Positions 1,465 to 28,991 of a stretch of 64,000 bases of DNA are shown in pieces. The notes under the pieces are model-generated. The model saw only the letters and a program-made list of their open reading frames with translations, was not told the origin of the DNA and did not search any database. Source of the stretch: Lachnospiraceae bacterium (GTDB lineage: Bacteria; Bacillota; Clostridia; Lachnospirales; Lachnospiraceae). Position numbers and translations under genes: made by a program. The DNA lies in the NCBI GenBank assembly GCA_029012365.1, contig JAQXLY010000028.1, positions 62,001 through 126,000 of the forward strand, written 5' to 3'. How positions within the stretch are numbered: the stretch's first letter is position 1; the number at the start of each line of letters is the position of its first letter.

Positions 1465-1493
1465 TTATCTTATATTGCGCAGCAGAGCATTCT

Positions 1494-1693
1494 ATAACAT
1501 TTCAGCCTTACTTATACGGGATAAGTTGTTGCGAAGGAGTATTCTAAAGAGAACCATAAGGCAACGTCAGTACTTAGCGAGGTGGTTTCGAGCTTAGTAC
1601 TGCTGCGTTGCTGCATGAGCGAGAGCGGGTTCTCTTTATGGAAACGCTGATCCGTCGCCACAACGATTACACACTAAAAGGGTGCACTGTTAC
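1494..1693 (-). mobile_element. MITE-like palindromic insertion, copy 1 (older copy)
   Basis: A 200-bp non-coding element related along its whole length, in opposite orientation, to the element at 28766-28960. The shared core includes CAGTACTTAGCGAGGTGGT and GCATGAGCGAGAGCGGGTT. The ends are ATAACATTTCAG and the complement GTAACAGTGCAC, weaker than in copy 2. It is flanked by AGCATTCT (1486-1493) and AGCATTTT (1694-1701), an 8-bp target duplication with one mismatch. The right arm of the core has diverged (TTTATGGAAACGCTGATCC in place of the arm that mirrors the left), so this copy looks older. It sits 3 bp after the stop codon of the kinase-DegV gene and may serve as its transcript end. No transposase is visible in the window. 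Confidence 0.85.
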
Positions 1694-1704
1694 AGCATTT
1701 TGCC

Positions 1705-4377
1705 CTATATGCTGTAATAAGAAATTCCAATGGTCCCCAAGCCGGAATTGCATGCCACCGAGAAGGATGCCTTTTGCACGATGACACGTTCAAACGGTAC
1801 ATAACGTAACACTTCTTTTCTTATCCATTCTAACTGCTCTACACTGCAGCCGACATGTGAAATAATAACCAAAGAAGGATTTATTTTATTTTTACGGCGC
1901 AGATGCCAGTAGATTCCCACTTTCCATGCCCGCTCCATAGTGCCTCCCAGAAACGCAGATAAAACAACTTTTTTCTGGCGCATTCCCGCATACGGATGAA
2001 GCTGTAGTAACCGGCAGAACATAAGTGTCAGAGCGTTGGTTCGCTTATTTTGGAAAAAAATATCCGCCGACGGAAAAATAAATCTGGACTGCACACCCGA
2101 CTTCATTTTTTCCACAGCACTGCATATCTCACTGGCTGTTTTTCCCTCCTTTGCAAGCTTTGCCGCAAAAAGGGTAATAATACTTTGACCACATGAAATC
2201 TGACAGGAATCTATGACCGCCACATGGTCAAACCCCTTCGCAGCCGTCATTGCAATCTGATAGCTGATACCCACATTGGATGCCATGGAAATATGCACCA
2301 CCTGCTCAGCCCGTGTCAGTACATCAGCAAAGAACTCTTCATATTCCTCTACTGTCACACTGTCCACATAGGCAGTGCTGTTGGTGGAAGAGATATACTG
2401 TGTCAGACTATCCGAATCAATTTCCTTTGTATCTGCAAACCGTCCATGTGGCGTTATGATGTACAGATACATCACCTCAATATCATACTGTTCCAACAGT
2501 TCCACAGGAAGATCACACACGCAATCTGTTGTAATACATACTTTTTTCCGCCACTGCAACGGAACCTTCTGTACCGGACTGCTTTCCTTCCATACACTTT
2601 TCACCGCTGCCTGATACTCTATCAAATCAGGCGGCAGAAATTTTAACAGCTCTGCTTCCAGTACTTTTCCGGATATAGGCTTTTCCAGATAACCGTCAAA
2701 TCCAAGTTCACGATATTTCTGCTCTGCTCCTGCCATTACATCGGCCGTAAGTGCAATCACTGTAGTATCCCTGCACAGACCGTTCTCCTGACTTCGAACT
2801 GCCTGTAACGTCTCAGCACCATTCATCTTTGGCATCATATAATCCATGAGAATTATATTGTATTGCTTTTTCTTTGTCAGTTCCAGACAATCCGGACCAC
2901 TGTTTGCAATATCTGTCTTTACCTTGGTATTTGTTAAGAGCCTGCTCACCACCATGGAACTTATGGGATTATCGTCCACAACCAGAATTTTCGCCTCCGG
3001 TGCTTCAAAGCTTGACTGATAGACTGGCGTCTCCTCCGTCTCTCTTTCCAACAGGTTGATGTCCCCGATTGTCTTTGCATCCACAACCTTTTGTCTGATG
3101 CTTATGGTGAAGACGGTTCCTTTGGTATAAATACTGTCAACAGCAATTTCTCCCTGCATCATATCCACCAGCTGTTTGGTGATTGCAAGACCGAGACCGT
3201 TTCCAACGATTCCCATATGACTTTTTTCATCCACCCGGCTGAAGGAATCATAAATATACGCTAAATCTTCCTTCCGGATTCCTATTCCGGTATCCGCTAC
3301 CTTCACCTGAAGCAGGACTTCCTCCCCTTCACTGCTTTCTGCATTTACCGAAAGTGTAACCGAGCCTTCCTCCGTATATTTCACGGCATTATCCAGAATG
3401 TTAAGAAATATCTGTTTTAACCGCCTTTCATCTCCAAACAGAACAGACGGCAGATTACGGTCAATTTCCAGATAAAACTCCAGCTCTTTGTTTTTCATCC
3501 GAATCCTAACCATATCTACAAGCTCGCCAAACAGCTCTTTTGTACTGTATGGTGCCGGAACAAGGCTCATCTTCTGCATTTCTAGCTGTGATAAATCCAA
3601 AATATCATTAATCTGGTTCAGAAGAAGCTTACTTGCCTGCTCAATATCTTTGGCATATTCCAGTGTATTACCCGAAGCGTTTTCACGCATAATCATTTCA
3701 TTCAGTCCGATGATTGCCGTAATCGGTGTTCTGATTTCATGACTCATATTGGCAAAAAAGACATTCTTTGCATTACTGCTTTTCTCTAATGCCTCTTTCT
3801 GCTCCATATTCAACTTATGCTCCTTCTCAAATACCTTCATTTGTGTCTTTAAGATGATTCCCACCAAAAGACCAACCACAATTACCGAAAAATATGAGTC
3901 CAGGTAAGCAAATTCTTCCGATGCCATCGGAACCAGATATTCCGGAAAACGAAGTGCAAAGAAGTAGGTTCCCCCATACACAGCTACACATAATATTAAG
4001 AAGAAAATCTGGCGTCTTCCGGTAAACATAATGAATATGTATGCAAAACCAAGCGCCAGCCAGACATCTGCCCCACTGTTCAGACCTGCGCTCAAAATAA
4101 ACATTACAGGAAAAATGACTGCGATTATAAAAAATCCAAGGACAATAGCCGCAATATCATACCTGCTGTACCGGAATGTGGCAAACAGGCAGATTCCCAT
4201 AGCAATAAGGAGCAGGAAAAGCATGAAAACTATCATTGCACTGATTTCCATGACAAGCAGAATTTCTATCATTGCGACAATGGCTGCTGCTCCTCCGGCA
4301 AGGATTACGGTACGGAACATTCTTTCCCTGAATTCACAATTCTTTCCGGATAACTCATCTAGTAATTTTTTCCACAC
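1705..4377 (-). CDS. Hybrid histidine kinase fused to a DegV (fatty-acid-binding) domain
   Basis: Membrane sensor kinase of 890 residues. GTG start with AGGGGGG upstream. Five or six membrane segments fill residues 20-175 with no large extracellular domain. The kinase core follows: H-box FFANMSHEIRTP with His213, N-box near 325 (LNILDNAVKY), G1 ADTGIGI near 361 and G2 GNGLGLAI near 392. A receiver domain spans about 463-580 with phospho-acceptor Asp512 (LMDYMMPKMNG). Residues 612-890 form a complete DegV-type domain: TTDCVCDLPVELLEQY at its start, HISMASNVGISYQIA and VIDSCQISCG in the middle, and a GLGTIGISYY end. DegV/FakB proteins bind fatty acids; here the domain occupies the place where an HPt or output domain would be expected. 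It lies 13 bp after the neighbouring hybrid kinase, so the two are probably co-transcribed. The stop codon is TAG at 1705-1707. Confidence 0.9.
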   Translation of the reverse strand: MWKKLLDELSGKNCEFRERMFRTVILAGGAAAIVAMIEILLVMEISAMIVFMLFLLLIAMGICLFATFRYSRYDIAAIVLGFFIIAVIFPVMFILSAGLNSGADVWLALGFAYIFIMFTGRRQIFFLILCVAVYGGTYFFALRFPEYLVPMASEEFAYLDSYFSVIVVGLLVGIILKTQMKVFEKEHKLNMEQKEALEKSSNAKNVFFANMSHEIRTPITAIIGLNEMIMRENASGNTLEYAKDIEQASKLLLNQINDILDLSQLEMQKMSLVPAPYSTKELFGELVDMVRIRMKNKELEFYLEIDRNLPSVLFGDERRLKQIFLNILDNAVKYTEEGSVTLSVNAESSEGEEVLLQVKVADTGIGIRKEDLAYIYDSFSRVDEKSHMGIVGNGLGLAITKQLVDMMQGEIAVDSIYTKGTVFTISIRQKVVDAKTIGDINLLERETEETPVYQSSFEAPEAKILVVDDNPISSMVVSRLLTNTKVKTDIANSGPDCLELTKKKQYNIILMDYMMPKMNGAETLQAVRSQENGLCRDTTVIALTADVMAGAEQKYRELGFDGYLEKPISGKVLEAELLKFLPPDLIEYQAAVKSVWKESSPVQKVPLQWRKKVCITTDCVCDLPVELLEQYDIEVMYLYIITPHGRFADTKEIDSDSLTQYISSTNSTAYVDSVTVEEYEEFFADVLTRAEQVVHISMASNVGISYQIAMTAAKGFDHVAVIDSCQISCGQSIITLFAAKLAKEGKTASEICSAVEKMKSGVQSRFIFPSADIFFQNKRTNALTLMFCRLLQLHPYAGMRQKKVVLSAFLGGTMERAWKVGIYWHLRRKNKINPSLVIISHVGCSVEQLEWIRKEVLRYVPFERVIVQKASFSVACNSGLGTIGISYYSI

Positions 4378-28736: not shown

Positions 28737-28765
28737 TGCTTTTTTGCTATTACTTTCCTGTTTAT

Positions 28766-28960
28766 GTAACAATTCAGTCTTCCGGTGTGTAATCGTTGTG
28801 GCGGCATAGTATTCTAAAGGGAACCCGCTCTCGCTCATGCGGCAACGTAGCAGTACTAAGCTCGAGACCACCTCGCTAAGTACTGACGTTGCCTTATGGT
28901 TCTCTTTAGAATACTATGCCGCCACAACTTATACTGCATAAGGAAGTCTGAACCTGTTAC
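28766..28960 (+). mobile_element. MITE-like palindromic insertion, copy 2 (well-preserved copy)
   Basis: 195-bp non-coding element. Ends are terminal inverted repeats: GTAACAATTCAGTCTTCC on the left and, read inward on the other strand, GTAACAGGTTCAGACTTCC on the right. Identical 8-bp duplications CTGTTTAT flank it at 28758-28765 and 28961-28968. Inside, 28795-28928 is a 134-bp long inverted repeat: outer arms of 31 bp with one mismatch (GTTGTGGCGGCATAGTATTC...), inner arms GCAACGT...CAGTACTAAGC with small bulges, and the unpaired tip near CGAGACCACCTCG. A smaller inverted repeat CTTAT-ACTGC-ATAAG lies beside the right end. No ORF. It separates the divergent nfeD and XRE promoters. A transposase in trans would be required. 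Confidence 0.9.
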
Positions 28961-28991
28961 CTGTTTATCATTTTTTGTATTTATAATTTAC

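Follow-up and report, generated by a model that had tools for sequence, protein, structure and literature searches.

A palindromic, probably IS66-type MITE in Lachnospiraceae with a conserved module at the tip of its hairpin

Positions 28766-28960 of the window (the whole 64,000-nucleotide stretch of DNA that we analysed) are a palindromic MITE, and the entire element is a single long hairpin whose apex holds a distinct conserved module some 100 nt in length. The MITE itself belongs to a known kind of element; the novel part is the apex module, which is present family-wide and for which a counterpart was found in no RNA library or literature searched. We consider it probable that the element is a MITE moved by IS66 and that its apex module, copied separately and kept as DNA structure, is shared among otherwise unrelated palindromes. 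The conserved module marks the tips of many long palindromes across a dominant gut family. Should it be copied as one unit, it would represent either a novel type of mobile hairpin or a naturally occurring trace of hairpin template switching. The outcome is a concrete IS66-linked MITE family, together with a covariance model for annotating Lachnospiraceae intergenic regions.

The window element and its copies

The initial annotation described a palindromic element with terminal inverted repeats (TIRs), an internal hairpin and 8-bp duplications, and this description is confirmed by coordinates, folding and arm complementarity. It also proposed an older, reversed second copy, which is likewise present with duplications at its ends. 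The features in the window are the following.

28766..28960, + strand: MITE copy 1, complete and palindromic, 195 bp
28758..28765: left 8-bp target duplication of copy 1, CTGTTTAT
28961..28968: right 8-bp target duplication of copy 1, CTGTTTAT
28766..28783, + strand: left TIR of copy 1, IS66-type, family consensus GTAACAGTTCAGCCTT
28942..28960, - strand: right TIR of copy 1
28795..28825, + strand: left inner arm of the copy 1 palindrome, 97% complementary to 28898-28928
28898..28928, + strand: right inner arm of the copy 1 palindrome, pairing with 28795-28825
28804..28918, + strand: apex module of copy 1, bounds from covariance model R1, 117.7 bits
1494..1693, - strand: MITE copy 2, older and in opposite orientation to copy 1, 200 bp
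1486..1493: target duplication of copy 2, AGCATTCT
1694..1701: target duplication of copy 2, AGCATTTT
1537..1648, - strand: apex module of copy 2, 98.1 bits

Copy 1 is non-coding, bears the TIR consensus at both termini and has exact duplications on its two sides (8/8); its right TIR is one base longer than the family consensus, which accounts for TIR lengths of 18 and 19. Its folding energy lies 13.6 sd below that of shuffled sequences as RNA and 13.8 sd below as DNA, and none of 200 shuffles folded as well. In bacteria, a palindrome this long is normally unstable. Next to copy 2, positions 1705-4377 (- strand) encode an 890-aa protein in which HisKA, HATPase_c and response regulator domains are followed by a C-terminal DegV domain, a fusion that is uncommon to our knowledge.

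The genome of origin is a draft of 2.89 Mb in 67 contigs, with many contig breaks inside the MITE repeat. It contains 26 MITE copies, counting full, truncated and contig-end examples, and the existence of these further copies upholds the original reading of the element as a MITE. Model R1 detects 28 apex modules in the same genome, five of them outside MITEs (L027-L030 and L037), so that about 23 MITE copies carry the module. Two congeners have more MITE copies than this genome. The 8-bp flanks agree at six or more of eight bases in 10 of 15 MITE copies, compared with 2 of 210 pairings when flanks were matched across different copies as a control, and we take these two matches to be an insertion shared between species. 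At the window site the insert is missing from all nine congeners, each of which retains the genes on its two sides (one encodes an HTH regulator, the other is a 215-aa gene that matches no Pfam entry) as well as a recognisable intergenic region. Some other insertions are common to more than one species (for example L007, L041 and L058), which indicates that the family has been active over time.

Some copies are incomplete or contribute to a gene leader. At L031, L087 and L096 the MITE has lost arm and apex, with GTAATCGT joined directly to CGCCACAAC, which fits slippage involving short repeats at the palindrome base. At L086 (1639-2449) and at L089 (G001), a methyltransferase gene (P0001, PF08241) takes its ribosome-binding site and leader from a MITE end, and because this arrangement occurs in two species the MITE end may have been domesticated. 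A search for phage or plasmid carriage of the element gave no match.

A conserved module shared among unrelated palindromes

The module was first seen as partial matches, in which the centre of the element appeared without MITE ends inside hairpins with unrelated arms. An alignment of 42 copies yields 39 base pairs, 25 of which covary on both sides, and none of 500 shuffles attained the covariation score. With 53 distinct sequences, drawn almost entirely from other genera, 37 of the 39 pairs covary, although that alignment was fitted to the model and thereby favours it. Unpaired but conserved are a 5′ bulge, CGCTYYCGCTC, and an A-A mismatch, and two G-T columns are conserved as well. The internal hairpin in the initial annotation is real but not exclusive to this MITE: its apex is a Lachnospiraceae-wide module that also resides in other hairpins.

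Model R1 finds the module in 9 of 10 genomes of the same genus and in 125 of 299 Lachnospiraceae genomes sampled, many of which reach the limit of 12 scored candidates and so have 12 or more copies. A pattern scan of the GTDB collection recovered at least 116 stretches with the module; among the 80 matches listed, nearly all are labelled as Lachnospiraceae or its genera, including Roseburia, Acetatifactor, Robinsoniella, Eisenbergiella, Pseudobutyrivibrio and Lachnospira. No Rfam 15 family scored above its gathering threshold for the element or for solo modules, and our search for literature on Lachnospiraceae MITEs or a structured RNA of this kind found nothing relevant.

The position of the module is highly consistent. 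In 142 of 153 copies it sits at a palindrome apex, where the arms pair better than at every random control position, and the median score for arm pairing outside the module is 20 (n=153) against 0 at random positions. The hosts include MITEs, whose ends are of three or more kinds, and the terminator loop of typA. Hosts with IS66-type ends account for 17 of 114 in other genera, nine of these having flanks that match at seven or more of eight bases, and further module-bearing palindromes end in GGAAATCAATTTTCAG or GGGGTGGGGAAATA. At the typA 3′ end, the module lies inside the terminator loop in four species, among them, in degenerate form, the genome of origin, whereas the terminator is an ordinary one in G001, G003, G005 and G009. 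The terminator stem of G001 is recognisably that of G000, and the presence of the module fits gain and loss alike. In G008 (L392), the typA 3′ region holds a different long palindrome without the module. Long palindromes bearing the module also occur between a T-box and the start of an aminoacyl-tRNA synthetase gene (L029, L053, L060 and L076); from their sequences, we take the genes after these T-boxes to be thrS, tyrS and pheS.

Modules and arms can have separate histories. For example, G004 has a module at the 3′ end of typA that is 100% identical to one in the thrS leader of G007 (both gene names read from sequence), while their arms are at a background identity of 0.56. Several additional pairs of identical modules with unlike arms exist, some within a single genome. 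We infer from these pairs that movement or conversion of the module does not depend on its arms and that the module may be mobile, although identical modules could also result from gene conversion or from duplication followed by a change of arms.

The covariation has an unusual character, in that two-sided changes of pairs are almost exclusively Watson-Crick and G-U occurs no more often than other mismatches. When the two wobble columns are set aside, G-U makes up 19 of 162 non-Watson-Crick cells, which is not above chance, and about 1% of standard pairs, compared with 10% for the acceptor stems of tRNAs at these loci, a generous control for which the best-pairing register was taken. Single modules are oriented near-evenly with respect to genes (23 in (+,+), 19 in (-,-) and 9 in divergent arrangements). 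The Watson-Crick bias and the near-even orientation together suggest that the structure is kept at the DNA level, but they are suggestive only, because G-U would be disfavoured as well if RNA from both strands were functional. Structure kept in DNA would fit either recognition of folded single strands or correction by template switching, and the asymmetry of the module between strands could still reflect an RNA function.

Many module copies are located 25-60 nt past a stop codon, and it had been suggested that copies might act as terminators. This idea fits the typA site, where a T-run clearly follows the hairpin. As a general role it is not supported: few outer ends have T-runs, there is no overall orientation bias, and modules lie in either orientation to genes.

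Element ends and a probable IS66 parent

The end GTAACAGTTCAGCC is found in 101 of 397 Lachnospiraceae genomes, at up to 61 sites per strand, with a reversed control near 0. Such ends flank many different palindromes across the family; in other genera these measure 56-216 bp, and exact 8-bp duplications accompany several of them. Both IS256-like and IS66 parents were considered originally, and the evidence supports IS66. At L115 (G100), a truncated tnpC retains the IS66 C-terminus (PF13817, 1.5e-13; PF03050, 8e-12), and about 20 nt past the stop codon of this remnant lies a MITE-type end, GCGAATGGCGCGGGCTGAATTGTTAC, in which 26 bp are nearly identical to the right end of the MITEs at L133 and L137. 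IS66 elements in Frankia are reported to produce 8-bp repeats, with IS66 ends beginning GTAAGCG (PMC11946415). The MITE terminal repeat starts GTAACAG, sharing GTAA with IS66 but departing from the published GTAAGCG. It is thus likely, judging from one truncated remnant, that the MITE ends are an IS66-type inverted repeat and that the MITE is IS66-driven.

An insertion sequence with these ends was traced only as the truncated tnpC at L115; an intact IS66 with such ends was not found in 27 TIR-rich genomes, where the readable IS66 ends differ (for example GTAAGTAC and GTAAGTAGG). PF03050 gave no match in the genome of origin or in three of the MITE-richest genomes (G062, G107 and G374), and neither G000 nor G001 has it. 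Open reading frames inspected between paired TIRs 0.4-5 kb apart, as candidates for an autonomous parent, are ordinary genes rather than transposases. The MITE resembles the IS66 family in its 8-bp duplication, its GTAA start and the identical type of end beside a tnpC remnant, and differs from it in having no genes, in starting GTAACAG and in the failure to find a full insertion sequence with MITE ends.

Origins of the module and comparable elements

In the explanation that we favour, an IS66-family transposase would recognise GTAACAGTTCAGCC ends and move the MITE in trans, making the 8-bp duplications, and the MITE would amplify the module as a passenger. The Watson-Crick bias suggests that a folded single strand of DNA or a cruciform may be the form in which the module itself is recognised or kept, and the module could spread between hairpin tips either by insertion there or by template switching between hairpins. 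A bolder version, which we put forward only tentatively, is that the apex module constitutes a novel class of mobile DNA hairpin, one that targets other hairpins at their tips in folded single-stranded DNA; its hosts would then be terminators and palindromic MITEs, and an enzyme would have spread it through much of Lachnospiraceae. It is also possible, though we doubt it, that there is one large group of palindromic MITEs in which polymerase template switching corrects and extends the palindromes, so that the apex has neither function nor mobility of its own. This would account for covariation that is Watson-Crick only and for arms that are wholly unlike at orthologous sites and nevertheless pair. 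At three loci (L295, L345 and L348), the repeats on either side of module-bearing IS66-type units are inverted and not direct, among them gagcgggg/ccccgctc and gcttcggt/accgaagc, as if each unit had been set precisely into a hairpin tip or template switching had extended the palindrome outward. However, template switching should erase the conserved bulge, the A-A mismatch and the G-T columns, all of which persist across genera, and the typA terminator that carries the module exists without it in a sister species.

A functional structured RNA (a 3′-UTR, leader or protein-binding RNA) that was captured by the MITE and is conserved for its RNA function appears unlikely to us. Strong covariation, the conserved unpaired CGCTYYCGCTC, the many copies shortly after stop codons and those in the terminator of typA and in the apparent leaders of thrS and tyrS would all suit such an RNA, but placement in either orientation to genes, a G-U share so far below that of tRNA acceptor stems and the lack of an Rfam family do not. 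Far less credible is a REP/BIME-like element moved by a Y1 (RAYT) transposase. REP, BIME and REPIN elements with RAYT are small intergenic hairpins that form inverted pairs and prefer gene ends, and the module resembles them in each of these respects, being intergenic, present in many copies and, in close pairs, mostly convergent. Nevertheless, we rejected this origin, given that G000, G001 and roughly half of the module-rich genomes lack PF01797 and that the window copy has TIRs and 8-bp duplications; the module requires no Y1 transposase, is far larger and is located at an apex. Finally, an ordinary fixed part of both intergenic regions, such as a conserved attenuator or terminator, might be imagined from the hairpin shape alone, but the exact target duplication and the site that is empty in nine congeners with neighbouring genes in place refute this for the window copy and leave the idea with virtually no credence.

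Among known systems, bacterial MITEs such as MITEAba12 are similarly short and non-coding, with TIRs, target duplications and tens of copies; the present element differs in that the whole of it is one palindrome and in having a covarying, conserved apex shared with other palindromes. Integron attC sites are hairpin DNA recombination sites in which structure and extrahelical bases are conserved above sequence. The module is comparable in that structure with extrahelical bases is kept more than sequence, apparently at the DNA level, but by inspection we noticed no attC motifs and no cassette arrays.

Two further arrangements of the module recur. Convergent, non-identical pairs about 60-390 bp apart are found in many genera (L300, L314, L320, L325, L339, L341, L215, L216, L230, L231, L234 and L235); an origin of these pairs in convergent genes was rejected, as several lie between co-directional genes. 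At L057, L062 and L082, a second insert rich in hairpins, CAGAGTTTCGCnTGCGAAACTCTG...GCGGTCGCTTGCGACATC...CTGCGGAG, breaks up the module close to its tip, giving nested tip insertions.
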